Shown here: positions 6,380 to 49,085 of the stretch, piece after piece
How the letters are laid out: each line of letters begins with the position of its first letter
Position numbering within the stretch: the first letter of the stretch is position 1
Assembly: GCF_014637725.1 (NCBI RefSeq)
Contig: NZ_BMFC01000021.1
Coordinates: 1-52,498 of the forward strand
DNA length: 52,498 bases
DNA from: Marivita lacus
GTDB lineage: Bacteria > Pseudomonadota > Alphaproteobacteria > Rhodobacterales > Rhodobacteraceae
Reading direction: 5' to 3'
Program-made: the position numbers and the translations under genes
Notes under the pieces: model-generated
What the model was told of the DNA's origin: nothing
The model's input: the letters and a program-made list of their open reading frames with translations, nothing else
Database searches by the model: none

Positions 6380-7006
6380 ATGCTGTCACACGCGACACGG
6401 ACGATCGGGGCAATTGCCGGGCTTCTGGGTATCGCCGCCTGTTCCGTTTTCGGAGGTGCCGCCGCGCCGGAATCCGAATACGACGTGGTCCTCTCCGAGC
6501 CGCCGTTCGAGCTGCGCGACTACGGCGAACTGGTCGTGGCCAAGACCCCGATGACGGATGGGTCCAGCACTGCGTTTGGGCGTCTTTTTGACTACATTTC
6601 TGGCGCCAATGGCGGCGCGCGCGACATCGCTATGACAGCGCCAGTCCTGAACACCGAAAGCGCCGATGGCGCCAAGATCGCGATGACCGCACCGGTCCTG
6701 CAAGACCGGGAAGGCGCGCGCAATATGATCTTTGTCCTGCCCGAGGGGCTGACACCGCAGACCGCGCCGGTACCGACCGATGCGCGCGTCTCGCTGACGA
6801 CGATCCCGCCGCGCCGAGTCGCGGTGGTACGCTATTCCGGTTTCCTGACCCGGCGAGTCTCAATCGAGGAAGCCCGGCTGCACGACTGGCTGGCGCGCAA
6901 AGGCCTGAGGGCGACGGGGCCGGCCGAAATCGCCGGTTACAATCCGCCCTGGACCCTGCCGCCCTATCGCCGCAACGAGGTTCTCATCCCCGTCGAACGT
7001 GACTGA
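6380..7006 (+). CDS. SOUL-family haem-binding lipoprotein
   Basis: A 208-residue protein with a lipoprotein signal peptide (hydrophobic AIAGLLGIAAC, lipobox Cys at about residue 21) followed by a complete SOUL domain: YDVVLSEPPFELRDYGE, the paired IAMTAPVL motifs, an FVLPEG segment and the terminal YNPPWTLPPYRRNEVLIPV. SOUL proteins bind haem or related tetrapyrroles. Lipidation would place it on the periplasmic side of a membrane. The AGAGGCAGGG sequence just before ATG supports the start. It shares strand and short spacing with the DUF2177 gene, so the two are probably cotranscribed. Confidence 0.85.
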   Translation: MLSHATRTIGAIAGLLGIAACSVFGGAAAPESEYDVVLSEPPFELRDYGELVVAKTPMTDGSSTAFGRLFDYISGANGGARDIAMTAPVLNTESADGAKIAMTAPVLQDREGARNMIFVLPEGLTPQTAPVPTDARVSLTTIPPRRVAVVRYSGFLTRRVSIEEARLHDWLARKGLRATGPAEIAGYNPPWTLPPYRRNEVLIPVERD

Positions 7007-7060
7007 CCGCCGGTTCCGTCTCCGCCATCTGACGTTGATGCTCGGCATGATGCTACAACT

Positions 7061-7806: not shown

Positions 7807-8170
7807 ACGCCTCCGAGACCCAGACGCCTGTCGAGCGGGGTTTTCGTACCCGGGGCTGAGAGACGGACGCATTCGCGGAAATTGTCAGCCATCGAGCGTG
7901 TCGGCGCACCGCCGGCTTCGATACCAGTGGGACTTGTGTTCAACGCGGTTTCGAAGCAGGATCTTAGGCTGCTTCACCGCGCAGATTGCAAGTTTCCTCG
8001 CGCAGTGTAAGAAGGGCAGGCAACATAAGTTTTTCGCCGAACCCGAAAGTCACAAATCGAAGTCGGCCAGCTGTCAAGTCCTGCTTGAATGCCAGTTTCC
8101 CATGAATTTTCCGGGACCCCGTTTTGGCTGAACTGCCTCCGGAGGTGCCGCTTCACGAAAGGGTGAAGAA
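7807..8170 (+). other. Intergenic stretch upstream of the six-PAS hybrid kinase
   Basis: 364 bases without a supported gene. A short phrase near 7881-7912 (GTCAGCCATCG followed by CACCGCCGG) recurs at 15012-15033, suggesting shared junk or mobile-element-derived sequence in this accessory segment. The ribosome site and TTG start of the kinase lie at the right edge. Confidence 0.35.
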
Positions 8171-11100
8171 TTGAACACCGCGACTGACAGCCTCTTTCTG
8201 TCACACCCCGATCCGATGTTGATCTATGATCTGGAAACGCTGCGATTTCTGGATGTCAACAAGGCCGCCGTCGCAAAATACGGGTATTCCCGCGACGAAT
8301 TTCTTTCAATGACCATCGCCGATATCCATCCGGATGAAGACAAGTCCGCCCTTGTGGCCCACCTCGCGGCTGCCACCGAAGGCCGCAACGAAGCCGGGAT
8401 GTGGCGGCACCGGCTGAAGTCCGGCGAGATCATCCATGTCGACATCACCAGCCACATTATCGACCACGATGGGCGCAGCGCGAAGCTGGTCGCGGCACGG
8501 GATGTGACGGAACGGGTGAATGCTGAAAGGGCCCTTGCGCAGGCGAAACGGATGCTCGAGATCGCGGGTCATTCGGCAAAGTTCGGAGCCTGGAGCTTTG
8601 ACGTGGCCAACAGAAAAGCAGAATGGTCCACCGAGACCGCCCGTATCCATGATGAACCTGATGGGTTTTCACCACATATCGACGATGCGCTTTCCTATTT
8701 CGCGCCTGAGGATCGGGAGCGGATCAAGAATGCATTCAAAGATTGTATTGCTCATGGCCGTTCCTTTGATGAAATACTCCAGGTAATCACGGCGAAAGGC
8801 CGCAAGTTATGGGTGCGCTCGACGGGTGAGGCGGTTCTTGATGAAACCGGCAAGACCACGATGGTTGAGGGCTCCATTCAGGACATGTCTGAACTGGTGA
8901 CCGTCCGCAAGCGTGCTGAGGACGCGGAAAGATTGCTGGCGATGGCCGGCCGGGCGGTCAAGCTGGGGGGGTGGCGCGTTGATCTCGCGAACCAAAAGGT
9001 AACTTGGACGGATGGCACAGCGGCCATTCACGAACTGCCGGCTGGCTTTTCCCCTTCATATGATGCTGGGATCGATTATTTTGCACCAGAAGAGCGCGAC
9101 TCGGCGCGGAAGGTTTTCGACGATTGCGTCGAACACGGCATTGCGTTTGATAACGTCCGCGACCTGATCACGGCAAAGGGAAATCGCATCCAGGTCCGCT
9201 CCTTTGGGGTGCCGGTAAAGGATGACGCGGGCCAGATCGTTGCCGTGCAGGGCGCGATGCAGGACATCACTGAATTGATGACCGCCCAACGGACAGCTGA
9301 TGAGCTTAGCGGGCGTCTGGCCGAGACGTTGGAAAATATAGGCGATGCCTTTTTTATGCTCGATAGGGATTGGCGCTTTTCCTACCTCAACACCAAGGCT
9401 GAGGAGCTTCTGGAGCGCACTCGTGAGGAATTGATTGGACGCCGGATTAGCGATGAACTTTCTGGAAGCGTCTTTGAAGCTCAGTATTCGCGGGCGTTCG
9501 AGACCGGGCAGACAGTCAGGTTTATTGAGCATTATCCTCCGCTCAAGCGAACGTTCCGCGTCACTGCCCATCCGATACCAGATGGATTGGCTGTCTATTT
9601 TTCCGACATCACCGAAGAATGTCGCCAGACCGAACAGTTGCGGTTGCTCGAGGCGGCCGTTCAGCAGATCAACGATGTCGTCATCATCACGGATGCCATA
9701 CATCGCGCTGCTTCTGGCGACGACACCATCATTTACGTCAACGATGCCTTCGAACGCATGACCGGGTTCACGCGCGACGAGGTGATCGGACGGACACCCA
9801 GAATCCTGCAAGGCCCCAAAACCCAACGCTCCGAACTTCACCGGATCTGGCAGGCGATTGAGACCCACTTTCCAGTGAGCGTCGAATTGATCAACTACAC
9901 GAAGTCCGGTCGGGAATACTGGCTGGAGCTCGACATGGTTCCGCTTGCAAATGGTGAAGGACAGGTCACGCATTTCGTCGCGGTGCAGCGCGATATAACC
10001 GATCGCAAGCGCGGCGAGGACGCATTGCGCGTCTCAGAGGCACGGTTTCGCCTGATCGCCGACGCAACCGAAAACACCGTTTGGGACTGGGACATCGCCG
10101 AAGGGCGCTGGTGGTGGAGCGACGGAATGGTGCAGCAATTCGGCCATCATCCCGATCCCGACGCCAAGCTGCCGACCGTCTGGCGCGCAAACGTGCACCC
10201 CGACGACCAGATGCGTGTCGAGGCACTTTTCGAGAAGCTCACTCTGGGTGAAATTGGTGTACTTCACGACCAGTATCGGTTTCGACGGGCCGACGACAGT
10301 TGGGCGCATGTGGAAGAACATGCCTTCCCGATCCGCGATAATGAAGGACGTATCGTCAGGGTCATTGGAAGCATGGCGGATATCTCGGATCGGCTGGACA
10401 TGGAGGAGCGTCTGCGTCAGTCGCAAAAACTGGAGGCCGTGGGTCAACTGACAGGCGGCATTGCCCATGACTTCAACAACCTGCTGACAATCATCATGGG
10501 CAATACGGAAATGCTTCGGGACAGCCTTGAGGAAGACAGTCCACTGCGGCGGTTTGCCGACGCGAGCGCTGTTGCGACGGATCGCGCCACTGAACTGACC
10601 AATCGGCTGCTGGCGTTCTCGCGCAAACAGATGCTTCAACCCCAGGTGTTTGACGTCAACGCCGTGATTACCGACTTCGAGGACATTCTGCGCCGGACCT
10701 TGGGTGAGAATATCGACATCGAGATCGACCTCGCCAATGATATATGGCTGACAGAGATCGATCTTGCTCAGGCCGAAGCCGCCATTCTGAACCTTGCGAT
10801 CAATGCGCGCGATGCGATGCAGGGTGGCGGGTCATTGACCATCGAGACGGCGAATGTGGTCCTCGACAGCGACTATGTCTCGAGCGAACCTGATGTGCCT
10901 GCCGGGCACTACATCGTCATTGCGGTCAGTGACACCGGGCACGGCATTCCCAAGGACCAGATCGCACAGGTCTTCCAGCCGTTCTTCACCACGAAAGCTG
11001 TTGGCCAGGGAACGGGGCTTGGCTTGAGCATGGTGCACGGTTTCGTCAAGCAAACCGGCGGTCATATCCGGATCTATTCCGAAGTGAACGAAGGCACGAC

Positions 11101-11548
11101 CGTCAAACTGTATTTCCCCCGGTATGTCGGGGACCGAGAAGAGCAAGGTACCACATCGCAGGACCGGCCCTTGCAACGTGGTCAGGAGACCATTCTGGTA
11201 ATCGAGGACGACGTCCTGATCTTGCAGCAGTTGATGGCGCAACTGACCGGGCTGGGGTACCGGGTGATCACGGCGTCGGCCGGCCCCCCGGCGCTGGACA
11301 TCCTGCGTGCGAGATCGGATATCGACTTGCTCTTGACAGATGTGATCCTGCCCGGCGGCATGAACGGACGTCAGATTGCCGACGCCGCCCGTGTGATCCA
11401 TCCGGACCTCAAGGTTGTTTTCACCTCGGGCTATTCGGAAAATGCGATTGTGCACCACGGACGGCTGGATTCCGATGTCAACTTTCTGGGCAAACCCTAC
11501 CGCCGGTCCGAACTCGCCGCGAAGGTTCGGGAGGTTTTAGAGTCCTGA
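8171..11548 (+). CDS. Hybrid sensor histidine kinase with about six PAS domains and a C-terminal receiver
   Basis: A 1125-residue protein without signal peptide or membrane segments, so a cytoplasmic sensor. In order: PAS1 (about 5-110), PAS2 (128-250), PAS3 (254-375), PAS4 (384-480), PAS5 (495-620), PAS6 (625-745), HisKA with phospho-acceptor His766 in GGIAHDFNNLL, HATPase with N-box NLAINARDAM and G-box DTGHGIPKDQ, and a receiver (about 1008-1125) with Asp1057 in LLLTDVILPGG. PAS2 and PAS3 are near-copies of each other (an internal duplication). PAS5 has a LOV-like GRTPRILQGPKTQR stretch but no photoactive Cys. The start is TTG; the first PAS begins within ten residues, which argues against the later ATG. 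Its stop lies 24 bases from that of the convergent kinase gene. Confidence 0.88.
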   Translation: MNTATDSLFLSHPDPMLIYDLETLRFLDVNKAAVAKYGYSRDEFLSMTIADIHPDEDKSALVAHLAAATEGRNEAGMWRHRLKSGEIIHVDITSHIIDHDGRSAKLVAARDVTERVNAERALAQAKRMLEIAGHSAKFGAWSFDVANRKAEWSTETARIHDEPDGFSPHIDDALSYFAPEDRERIKNAFKDCIAHGRSFDEILQVITAKGRKLWVRSTGEAVLDETGKTTMVEGSIQDMSELVTVRKRAEDAERLLAMAGRAVKLGGWRVDLANQKVTWTDGTAAIHELPAGFSPSYDAGIDYFAPEERDSARKVFDDCVEHGIAFDNVRDLITAKGNRIQVRSFGVPVKDDAGQIVAVQGAMQDITELMTAQRTADELSGRLAETLENIGDAFFMLDRDWRFSYLNTKAEELLERTREELIGRRISDELSGSVFEAQYSRAFETGQTVRFIEHYPPLKRTFRVTAHPIPDGLAVYFSDITEECRQTEQLRLLEAAVQQINDVVIITDAIHRAASGDDTIIYVNDAFERMTGFTRDEVIGRTPRILQGPKTQRSELHRIWQAIETHFPVSVELINYTKSGREYWLELDMVPLANGEGQVTHFVAVQRDITDRKRGEDALRVSEARFRLIADATENTVWDWDIAEGRWWWSDGMVQQFGHHPDPDAKLPTVWRANVHPDDQMRVEALFEKLTLGEIGVLHDQYRFRRADDSWAHVEEHAFPIRDNEGRIVRVIGSMADISDRLDMEERLRQSQKLEAVGQLTGGIAHDFNNLLTIIMGNTEMLRDSLEEDSPLRRFADASAVATDRATELTNRLLAFSRKQMLQPQVFDVNAVITDFEDILRRTLGENIDIEIDLANDIWLTEIDLAQAEAAILNLAINARDAMQGGGSLTIETANVVLDSDYVSSEPDVPAGHYIVIAVSDTGHGIPKDQIAQVFQPFFTTKAVGQGTGLGLSMVHGFVKQTGGHIRIYSEVNEGTTVKLYFPRYVGDREEQGTTSQDRPLQRGQETILVIEDDVLILQQLMAQLTGLGYRVITASAGPPALDILRARSDIDLLLTDVILPGGMNGRQIADAARVIHPDLKVVFTSGYSENAIVHHGRLDSDVNFLGKPYRRSELAAKVREVLES

Positions 11549-11572
11549 CCGAAGTGTCTTTACCGAAAATCC

Positions 11573-13132
11573 TTAATCAGGAGCAGGTAAATGCAACTCC
11601 ACGGTCGTTCCTTTGCCGCTTGCGCTGCGCAGCCTCAATTCTCCTGAGGCCACGCGTGCAAGACCATCAACAAAGCTGAGCCCCAGCCCAATGCCCATGC
11701 CGACCTCACGCTTCGTGAAGAATGGCTCTCGGGCCTTTTTCAGCGTGGCGTTGTCCATGCCGAATCCCTGATCGCTAACAGCGATGACGATCTCTCGGGC
11801 CTGAGTCTCGTCCCTCATGGTCAGCCGCGTCGAGAGATGAATGTCACCGCCGTCAGGCATCGCTGCGACCGCATTTGTGATCAATTCTTCAATCGCCTCT
11901 TTCAGCATGTCTGACCCCAGCTCGACAACGGCGCCAGCGGCTTGGAGATCGACCGTCAATCGATACTTTGCGGCAAGGCGGTTGGCCTGATTCCGCGCGA
12001 TGTCCTGCAAATGCGGGTCGACCTCGAGGTTGGCGAACTGTGCAAGGGTATAGCCCGAATACAACAGCAGGTGATTGACGAGTTTTGCAGCCCGTTGCGT
12101 CACGACAAAACTGCTTTCGAGGGTTGGTTGAAGATGCGGTCGATCAGCAAGCTCTTCTTCCAGTAATTCAAGGTTGCCCAGAATAACGGTCAGGATGCCG
12201 TTCAGATTGTGCGCGAATCCACCAGTCAACTGACGGACGATGGCGTCACGGTCGATCTGCCGCTTCTGGGCTTCGGCGCGGAATTCTTCCGTGACATCTT
12301 CCACGACACCCACGACAGAAGTTATGAGGCCGCCAGAATTGGTGATCGGAATTGCCTTCATTTGGACGTGTCGCTGCGGCGCATCCTGCACGTCGATACG
12401 TAAACGGCCTGAGAAAGTTTTGCCTGCGCGGATCGCCTCCTGAAACTGTGGCCCGATGGCGGTGCGATCCTCGCTGGTCAGGGCCGAGAGCCAGTCTTCC
12501 GCAGAGTCGACGCCCAAAAGTGCAAAAAACCGGCGACTGGCCTGCACTATTTCACCGGAAAAAGGATCAGCGCGGAAAATACCCACGGGAAGTGTGTCGT
12601 AAAACGCGTGCAACTCGTTGTTGGTGCGATCAAGGCTCTGGTTGGTCGCGCTCAACTCTTCGTTCAGATCTTGAAGCTCTTGGTTGGCCGCAGACAGGGC
12701 GCTGCGCGCAGCCAGCAGCTCACTTTCATAGCGGCGCCGGTCTGTCGCGTTAAAGACGGTGATCCAGATCGAGATAGCCTTACCGTCCTCGTCGCGCCGT
12801 TCTGCCGCATTGACCAAAATCGGAATGCGGTCACCGTTTTTTGCGACCAGATCAAGCGCCACTTCGTTGAATGATCCCTGAAGACGAAGGAGCGGCGCGA
12901 AATGCGTTTCGTAGTAAATCTTGCCCGCCACATTCAGCAGGTCCTGAAATCGCCGCCCCGGCAACTCGCCGGTGTCATATCCTGTCCATGCCCGGAATGT
13001 TGCATTCACTCGAACGATGCAGCCGCCAGGATCAAGAGACAGGTAACCGCAGGGTGCATGCTCGTAGAGATCCCGGAGTTCATCGAGATCGATCTGCAAG
13101 GCGTCTGTATCGCTGGGGCAATTGGTGTCCAT
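11573..13132 (-). CDS. Cytoplasmic histidine kinase with an RsbP-like N-terminal PAS domain
   Basis: About 519 residues from the ATG at 13132 (a GTG at 13153 would add seven). Counted from that GTG: PAS-A 24-140, a heptad-like coiled coil 140-182 (ELQDLNEELSATNQ), PAS-B 183-293, HisKA with His315 in GGFAHNLNGIL, and HATPase 410-525 with N-box EELITNAVAAM and G-boxes SDQGFGMD and GIGLGLSF. No membrane segments and no receiver. PAS-A contains APCGYLSL, FAPLLRLQG and IPILVNAAERR, closely matching my recollection of the PAS domain of Bacillus RsbP. The start abuts the stop of the RsbQ-like gene (TGA-T-ATG arrangement), so the two are translationally coupled. Output in RsbP is a PP2C phosphatase; here it is a histidine kinase. 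Confidence 0.88.
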   Translation of the reverse strand: MDTNCPSDTDALQIDLDELRDLYEHAPCGYLSLDPGGCIVRVNATFRAWTGYDTGELPGRRFQDLLNVAGKIYYETHFAPLLRLQGSFNEVALDLVAKNGDRIPILVNAAERRDEDGKAISIWITVFNATDRRRYESELLAARSALSAANQELQDLNEELSATNQSLDRTNNELHAFYDTLPVGIFRADPFSGEIVQASRRFFALLGVDSAEDWLSALTSEDRTAIGPQFQEAIRAGKTFSGRLRIDVQDAPQRHVQMKAIPITNSGGLITSVVGVVEDVTEEFRAEAQKRQIDRDAIVRQLTGGFAHNLNGILTVILGNLELLEEELADRPHLQPTLESSFVVTQRAAKLVNHLLLYSGYTLAQFANLEVDPHLQDIARNQANRLAAKYRLTVDLQAAGAVVELGSDMLKEAIEELITNAVAAMPDGGDIHLSTRLTMRDETQAREIVIAVSDQGFGMDNATLKKAREPFFTKREVGMGIGLGLSFVDGLARVASGELRLRSASGKGTTVELHLPAPD

Positions 13133-13133
13133 A

Positions 13134-13928
13134 TCAGGCAAAGATGAAATCACGAATGGCGGTCGACGTGGCCTCGGGTGCGCTTAGGTTCGGGCAGTGG
13201 CCAGTCGCATCGAGCGTGACAAGTTGGCTGTCTGGAATGGCGTCGTGAACGTATTTACCCACCGCTTGCGGCGCGATGATGTCTTCCCGGCATTGCAGGA
13301 TCAGCGTCGGGATTGCAACGTGAGCGAGGTCGGATCGGTTGTCTGATGTAAAGGTGGTGCGGGCAAAGTGCCGGGCAATTTCCGGATCGGTCCTGCAAAA
13401 GCTGTTGGTCAGCTCCTCGCCCAACTCCGGTCGATCCGGGTTGGCCATGATCGTCGGCGCCATGGCCGCGGACCACCCCATGTGATTGCTGTCCAGAAAT
13501 TCAAGCAGCTCTTCGATTTCGGGCGCAGTGAAGCCGCCGAAATAATTGCCATCGTTAATATATTTCGGCGAAGGGCCGACGAGAACGAGGTGACTGAACA
13601 ATTCAGGCGCAGCGCGCGCCGCCAGCACACCAATCATCGCACTGACCGAGTGTCCGACAAAGATCGCTTTGCCCAGATCGAGTTCCCGGAGGATTTCCAA
13701 GACATCATCGGCGTGCCCCTCGAGGCTGCTGTATCGGTCCGGCGACCATGCGCTCAGATCTGACCTTCCTGCTCCGACAAGATCGAACAGCACCACTCTG
13801 AAATCGTCCGTAAAGTTCGGCGTCACAAACCGCCACATGTTCTGGTCACAGCCGAAGCCATGCGCAAAGACAATGGGCGATCCGGAATCCCCCAGTATCT
13901 GCACGTTGTTTCTGGTGATGACTGACAT
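13134..13928 (-). CDS. RsbQ/KAI2-like alpha/beta hydrolase
   Basis: A 264-residue alpha/beta hydrolase with the intact catalytic triad Ser94 (FVGHSVSAMIG), Asp216 (QCREDIIAP) and His244 (TGHCPNLS). Family-specific words FAHGFGCDQNMW, FDLVGAGRSDL, LFSHLVLVGPSP and FCRTDPEIARHFA match the RsbQ/D14/KAI2 group rather than general esterases. In Bacillus, RsbQ is needed for RsbP to respond to energy stress; plant relatives bind and hydrolyse butenolide signals. The ATG at 13928 is preferred because GGAGG precedes it by five bases; an upstream extension lacks family similarity. Coupled to the PAS kinase downstream, it probably generates or senses the small ligand that the kinase's PAS domain reads. 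Confidence 0.88.
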   Translation of the reverse strand: MSVITRNNVQILGDSGSPIVFAHGFGCDQNMWRFVTPNFTDDFRVVLFDLVGAGRSDLSAWSPDRYSSLEGHADDVLEILRELDLGKAIFVGHSVSAMIGVLAARAAPELFSHLVLVGPSPKYINDGNYFGGFTAPEIEELLEFLDSNHMGWSAAMAPTIMANPDRPELGEELTNSFCRTDPEIARHFARTTFTSDNRSDLAHVAIPTLILQCREDIIAPQAVGKYVHDAIPDSQLVTLDATGHCPNLSAPEATSTAIRDFIFA

Positions 13929-14151
13929 GGAGTCCTCCGGCATTTGCGTGTCTTGTGGCTCGGCGCGACCGCGTTTCAAATTTGACCCGTTCCAGCTCTT
14001 ACGGCTGGTCCATCAGAATCTTGCGCTTGCCTGAACGTAATCGCACACAACGTGTTGGACAATGCCAAGCCTACGGATGGGCGGTTTACACCCATCACGC
14101 AATCAAATCGCTGGAAATCCGAAAACTCATCCTCGTCTCGGCCCCATCGCT

Positions 14152-48789: not shown

Positions 48790-48900
48790 AATAGCGCCCT
48801 CCGCGCTGAGGCGGGTCGCATCGAGGTCGCAGGCATCTATCGCGCCATCAAGGCGCCAGGCATCTCGACCTCCGGTGCACCCCGCCCGGGTTCAGTTCAC

Positions 48901-49085
48901 GTGTGATGGCAGGTCTCCTGACTTGCGGGTCTTCATGCGGTTCGCACCTTCCCAGACCATCTGGCCCAGTGGCTATGCGCGAAGCACTCGTCGCTTACAG
49001 TTGCGGGGGCAGTCACGGATTTTCACCGTATTCCCTATTGGGACAGCGCATCACACGCTGCCCACCATCATCTTCACTGTCACAG
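48901..49085 (-). promoter_or_regulatory. Cobalamin (adenosylcobalamin/B12) riboswitch
   Basis: On the minus strand the conserved core is complete in order: a hairpin ending CCAATAGGGAA, then CGGTGAAAATCCGTGACTG, CCCCCGCAACTGT, a long variable peripheral arm (around 48935-49000), and the B12 box AAGTCAGGAGACCTGCCATC at 48905-48926. This order and these words define the cobalamin riboswitch class. It reads toward the 100-aa gene starting at 48789. The stretch from the B12 box to the start codon (about 110 bases) would hold the expression platform; a clear terminator was not identified there, so control may be translational. Confidence 0.92.

Follow-up and report, generated by a model that had tools for sequence, protein, structure and literature searches.

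An RsbQ-like hydrolase paired with an RsbP-type PAS histidine kinase in Marivita lacus

Nadezhdin, Brody and Price (2011, PMC3183031) reported 45 RsbQ-PAS pairs, with five proteins of the set carrying extra PAS domains; in the portion of the survey drawn on here, the outputs are a PPM phosphatase, a diguanylate cyclase or, in Gram-negatives only, a histidine kinase. In the PAS domain of RsbP, the mutations L48A, F55A, Y59A and E72A had null effects, and F55A abolished the binding of RsbQ. Two models were put forward, in which either the hydrolase delivers a product to the PAS domain or sensing is done by the hydrolase itself (PMC3183031). A 2025 eLife article (PMC12143880) predicts that RsbP and RsbQ form a 2:2 complex and refers to the forms with kinase and cyclase outputs, and it has been proposed that the plant receptor KAI2 possibly arose by transfer of a bacterial RsbQ (PMC10504578). 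An earlier note on the DNA studied here stated that RsbQ feeds a small molecule to its partner, which agrees with one of the two published models but leaves aside the other, in which the hydrolase senses. It further suggested a portable sensor with swapped output. This idea of a mix-and-match RsbQ-PAS sensor is correct, and outputs indeed vary among the relatives of the pair, but on the evidence of the cited parts of the 2011 survey it has been in print since then (PMC3183031); the pair described here is a good new example of it.

The window is the whole stretch of 52,498 nucleotides of M. lacus DNA that was analyzed. The hydrolase gene lies immediately upstream of the kinase gene, and the RsbP-type PAS domain is the most N-terminal domain of the partner, which is the layout of the described module (Table 1). 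The ATG of the kinase is one base past the hydrolase stop and its GTG is 20 bases within the hydrolase gene; translational coupling from hydrolase to kinase is likely. Pfam finds Abhydrolase in the first gene and the order PAS, PAS, HisKA, HATPase_c in the second, with the receiver domain absent. The linker behind PAS-A, which leads into PAS-B, has 82% hydrophobic residues at the a and d positions in its best register, a value reached by 8 of 5,000 shuffles. The domains and the type of PAS-A thus bear out the earlier proposal of a hydrolase-PAS input joined to a histidine kinase in a Gram-negative. Its remark that no PP2C or anti-anti-sigma gene is nearby also holds, because SpoIIE and STAS have no match on the window's contig, C21; elsewhere in the genome there are two SpoIIE matches (C1 and C6) and three STAS matches (C3, C13 and C1). 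No response regulator for the window kinase was found among the genes scanned (3.5-22.2 kb).

Table 1. Features of the hydrolase-kinase pair (positions in the window; residue numbers are those of the respective protein)
Feature	Position	Strand	Remark or basis
RsbQ-like alpha/beta hydrolase, 264 aa, S94-D216-H244	13134..13928	-	start ATG 13928, stop end 13134
GGAGGA, ribosome-binding-site-like, ahead of hydrolase ATG	13933..13938	-	read directly
Histidine kinase	11573..13153 (GTG start) or 11573..13132 (ATG start)	-	stop end 11573
PAS-A, RsbP-PAS type, residues 34-137	12743..13054	-	Pfam PAS_9
Predicted F-alpha helix of PAS-A, KIYYETHFAP, residues 78-87	12893..12922	-	mapped to B. subtilis F55/Y59, offset +25
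Heptad-patterned linker, residues 137-176, possible coiled coil	12626..12745	-	heptad statistics
PAS-B, ordinary PAS, residues 180-287, DIT-like DVT motif at end	12293..12616	-	Pfam
HisKA dimerization/phosphoacceptor domain, residues 307-366, H315 in atypical HNLNG	12056..12235	-	Pfam and H-box survey
HATPase_c, residues 415-525, N/G1/F/G2 boxes, no receiver after it	11579..11911	-	Pfam, 65.4 bits

Several other features of the window were recorded. At 8171-11548, the convergent neighbor encodes a hybrid kinase that has several PAS domains and a receiver, and two more copies of it (window 7808-11550) are present on C39 and C5 with DNA identities of 86% and 84%; the homology of these copies stops at 11550, 23 bases before the sensor kinase gene ends. 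A cobalamin riboswitch is found at 48891-49084 on the minus strand (129.2 bits). The region of a SOUL heme-binding gene (6588-7028) has 96% identity over 441 bases to a genome of the same genus, with no longer match listed there.

The earlier note had called for a survey of RsbQ homologs beside PAS-kinase genes. A single scan of genome contigs gave at least 552 confirmed relatives, and in 78 of the best 80 kept from these an RsbP-PAS-type protein adjoins the hydrolase, the other two having the hydrolase at a contig end. The pair is also adjacent in all 17 hydrolase-bearing genomes of the window's family, including its own. In all 94 pairs other than that of the window, drawn from the best 80 of at least 552 relatives and from the family loci, the PAS begins less than 200 bases from the hydrolase match on the same strand. 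A chance juxtaposition was ruled out by these counts and by the profile score of PAS-A given below. Profile scoring of the 78 loci (best 80 of at least 552) assigns 31 outputs to short HisKA kinases, 15 to larger kinases of the window type and 30 to phosphatases, leaving 2 unclassed. Pfam, applied to 79 proteins of the same best 80 of at least 552 with the window included, finds HisKA in 47, SpoIIE in 29 and Response_reg in 15, so that the number of phosphatases differs slightly by method (29/79 with Pfam SpoIIE versus 30/79 with profile scoring). The 16 other family loci carry HWE_HK in 8, HisKA in 6 and GGDEF in 2. When five output states are placed on the hydrolase tree, in which many forks are weak, 8 changes are needed compared with the least possible number of 4. 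The distances between hydrolases correlate with those between PAS-A domains (Spearman 0.79, 95 pairs; highest of 500 permutations, 0.24), although shared ancestry alone would yield much of this correlation.

Individual loci deserve mention. The nearest relative of the window pair is L091/L107. Two actinobacterial metagenome-assembled loci (L079 and L088) have a short histidine kinase as output, in contrast to the restriction of kinases to Gram-negatives in the 2011 survey, and binning errors are possible there. The RsbQ-PAS partner in Verrucosispora (L071, 6803-7810) ends in a GAF domain with no recognized output, and in Nitrobacter (L050) the open frame ends at 1923 within the hydrolase match (1459-2244), indicating that the copy may be broken.

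The likeness of PAS-A to the PAS domain of Bacillus RsbP, which the earlier note had proposed, was examined through a profile search and through the published class positions. A profile was built from 30 RsbQ-linked PAS domains whose output was classed as a PPM phosphatase (RsbP-like), with the window left out. PAS-A grouped with these phosphatase-coupled domains of other bacteria at 170.7 bits and not with the generic PAS domains tested, as PAS-B scored 7.3 bits and six PAS stretches delimited by eye in the neighboring kinase did not exceed 14.8. Among the C-terminal remainders of 27 linked proteins, the highest score was 12.4 bits, with four remainders unlisted, and the other 64 linked PAS domains with outputs other than a phosphatase all scored at least 41 bits. 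At E 0.001, the M. lacus genome contains no other match to PAS-A, and the solved PAS structures give no good one (best E, 0.016).

The words APCGYLSL, FAPLLRLQG and IPILVNA, on which the likeness had been based, are found at residues 33, 85 and 110 (GTG numbering). With a gapless offset of +25 assumed from the APCG motif and the symbols of the published legend assigned to positions by inference, the nine RsbP-PAS class positions of B. subtilis (C10, L13, L48, Q53, F55, C56, Y59, E72 and P86) correspond to C35, L38, L73, K78, Y80, Y81, H84, E97 and P111 of the window kinase. On this mapping, all nine fit the RsbP-PAS class, position 56 being described in the text of the 2011 survey as "hydrophobic or neutral aromatic" in most members (PMC3183031). 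Y80 and H84 are conserved residues of the predicted F-alpha helix, where the published RsbQ contacts of B. subtilis RsbP fall. The class positions are kept in the 94 other PAS domains, with His at 59 in 76/78 and 12/16 and Pro at 62 in 94/94, while E72 (62/78 and 13/16) and P86 (67/78 and 10/16) are less constant. The end of PAS-A (NATDRRRYE) lacks the DIT motif, as is the case in the RsbP-PAS class, whereas PAS-B, outside the class, ends in EDVTEE.

Taken together, we consider it very probable that the window pair is an RsbQ-PAS bipartite cytoplasmic sensor placed on a PAS-B/HisKA/HATPase kinase, which would most likely act through the docking of the hydrolase on PAS-A and through the linker. 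Two features of the kinase speak against this reading, the score of its HisKA domain and its H box. The HisKA domain scores 25.4 bits, just under the Pfam cut-off of 26.9, and an HWE_HK domain was not found in the window kinase with Pfam, the five HWE_HK matches of the genome being on other contigs. An acidic residue at H+1 helps autophosphorylation and marks an active HisKA kinase, and Asn or Thr at H+4 serves the phosphatase activity. The window kinase has Asn at H+1, not Asp or Glu, and Gly at H+4, and both its autokinase and its phosphatase activity may for this reason be weak. Since the acidic residue is replaced by Asn, it could be argued that the wiring is as described but that the kinase is weak or pseudokinase-like, the module then exerting its effect through binding or by using ATP to control the conformation of a different kinase or regulator. 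Among the 53 RsbQ-linked HisKA kinases surveyed, H+1 is acidic in 51, and Asn occurs only in the window kinase and in its sister L091 (HNLNN). A receiver domain is present at the end of 17 of the 19 partners of the window's kinase type; the window kinase has none, and L091, the other exception, has a frame that stops inside HATPase near the contig end, so that its receiver status cannot be judged. The convergent hybrid kinase, with its receiver, also fits such an arrangement. However, the phosphoacceptor H315 and the N, G1, F and G2 boxes that bind ATP are all intact, and the need for an acidic H+1 is general background, the survey being one of RsbQ-linked kinases. We regard a weak or pseudokinase-like partner as unlikely and retain the bipartite sensor on a histidine kinase as the preferred reading.

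The distribution of the hydrolase is patchy: at a cut-off of E 1e-50, it is present in 17 of 394 genomes of the window's family and in 1 of 17 of the genus, its own included in both. The DNA beyond about 15,939 has conserved counterparts in 10 or more of the other 16 genomes in the genus; for the stretch of the pair, no comparable match is listed. Such a distribution would also be expected if both genes were a decaying import that had lost its signaling role, but both frames are intact, the triad and the class residues are kept, and the junction is tight with a good ribosome-binding-site-like sequence, which makes decay very improbable. Among 72,556 plasmid records, 66 carry the hydrolase at E 1e-50, and 24 of these 66 are of conjugative type; the four plasmid loci that were read all have the short-kinase form. 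Apart from the pair, any gene is shared by a few of the 16 family loci at most (4.5-19.9 kb; mechanical ORFs, blastp), and the pair therefore looks like a functional unit. In view of its occurrence on plasmids, its patchiness and the lack of another recurring gene, the pair appears to be mobile and kept as a unit. On a conjugative Neorhizobium plasmid (L159, 5001-9567), the pair lies beside two IS1595 transposase genes. Two plasmid matches considered as hydrolase-PAS fusions were rejected: H24 has two distinct annotated genes with an overlap of eight bases, and in H29 the kinase gene begins five bases before the end of the match, with no hydrolase gene annotated.

Among all solved chains, phmmer ranked B. 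subtilis RsbQ (1wom) first (E 1.4e-92, 313 bits), followed by Olei00960 (235 bits) and by KAI2, D14, HTL and like-named plant chains (224-158 bits); the first chain beyond the RsbQ/KAI2/D14 group had 68 bits (E 8.7e-18). Over the aligned part of our own alignment, the hydrolase is 38-41% identical to three KAI2-type chains. The triad claimed earlier was found intact at exactly the residues named, and across 99 bacterial rows Ser is present in 99 and Asp and His in 98 each, with one gap each. A quick maximum-likelihood analysis of 106 rows, with four paralogs from the same genome as the outgroup, places the hydrolase as sister to L091, from a genome of the same family, with a support of 99, within a group that contains RsbQ and KAI2. 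The split from the four paralogs has a support of 94 (SH-aLRT, not starred; the outgroup branches are very long). The exact placement of RsbQ, Olei00960 and KAI2 is unsure, since they are among the long-branched rows and 38 of the tree's 103 internal branches are open. By its sequence, the hydrolase groups with RsbQ/KAI2 apart from other hydrolases, and its position inside this clade and its kinship with the plant hormone receptors, both predicted by the earlier note, agree with the ranking and the tree. That it is an ordinary metabolic esterase of, for example, the PcaD or BioH kind lying by chance beside a generic PAS kinase can be dismissed as extremely improbable, for although the best NCBIfam matches are the PcaD and BioH models, far under their cut-offs, and the 25 NCBIfam matches listed (of 31) include no RsbQ model, the gap in bits between RsbQ and the best chain beyond the group, the steady pairing with an RsbP-type PAS and the profile score of PAS-A all speak against it.

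The eight family relatives with an HWE kinase behind the RsbP-type PAS (L096-L099, L101-L103 and L105) suggest a further connection. Their hydrolases form one group (support 86), and when one of them served as the query at E 1e-60, matches came from 6 of 385 genomes of the class, including two of the window's family. No HWE output was found in the small sample of four class loci read from other families. HWE kinases are a class implicated in PhyR/NepR/EcfG signaling. NepR is present in seven of the eight HWE-pair genomes, the eighth being 77% complete, but also in 14 of the 17 hydrolase-bearing family genomes, including that of the window, and most carry it whatever the output. Since there are, in addition, up to 14 HWE matches per genome, the link from the HWE pair to PhyR is one drawn at the level of the kinase class. 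A local linkage to the PhyR system was rejected, as NepR lies beside the pair in none of the 17 genomes. In one literature collection, no paper was found that treats RsbQ and HWE together, and a search for RsbQ with PhyR gave one paper, a sigma-factor review. It is possible, though doubtful, that the HWE-coupled RsbQ-PAS drives the general stress response in a second, unrelated way, through the alphaproteobacterial PhyR cascade as opposed to the sigma-B partner switching of Bacillus; the window version, with a non-HWE kinase, no acidic H+1 and no receiver, would then be a further, possibly non-canonical wiring. If the HWE relatives do feed PhyR, two bacterial general stress responses would be tied by one input.

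For the bipartite sensor proposed here, the following course of events can be envisaged. The hydrolase would bind, and possibly slowly turn over, a putative small molecule in its Ser-Asp-His pocket and dock on the F-alpha face of PAS-A. This contact, alone or with a delivered product, might shift the quaternary arrangement of the kinase as a dimer, a change that the heptad linker would relay to the kinase core, so that phosphotransfer to an unlinked response regulator could be altered. The basis for this scheme in our analysis is the family membership of both genes, the class residues, the adjacency, the heptad linker and the order of domains. The need for the triad and the direct contact between RsbQ and PAS are presumed by analogy from work by others on B. 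subtilis, and the ligand, the dimer, the partner regulator and the sign of the output are all putative. The occurrence of RsbQ-PAS with phosphatase, cyclase and at least three sorts of kinase outputs provides a natural set of independent assays for the signal sensed by RsbQ, and the window pair is one more clean case of it.

The karrikin and strigolactone receptors KAI2 and D14 of plants share the alpha/beta hydrolase group and the triad with the window hydrolase, but many positions that are more than 95% conserved among bacterial rows carry another residue in the three KAI2-type rows, such as T for C27, R for D181 and L for C245. KAI2 and D14 signal through plant F-box partners, not PAS. The kinase-output module, as the 2011 survey presents it in the parts used here (PMC3183031), has in common with the window the gene order, the N-terminal RsbP-PAS, the class residues and the Gram-negative kinase, and the heptad-patterned linker may be a further likeness if it forms a coiled coil. 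Unlike that module, the window kinase has PAS-B between the linker and the core, no receiver, and HNLNG instead of an H box with an acidic H+1. With the RsbQ-RsbP system of B. subtilis, the window shares a hydrolase that is about 52% identical over the aligned part and RsbP-PAS class positions that are conserved in type. The output of RsbP, however, is a PPM phosphatase that targets RsbV within the sigma-B pathway, whereas that of the window is a histidine kinase.
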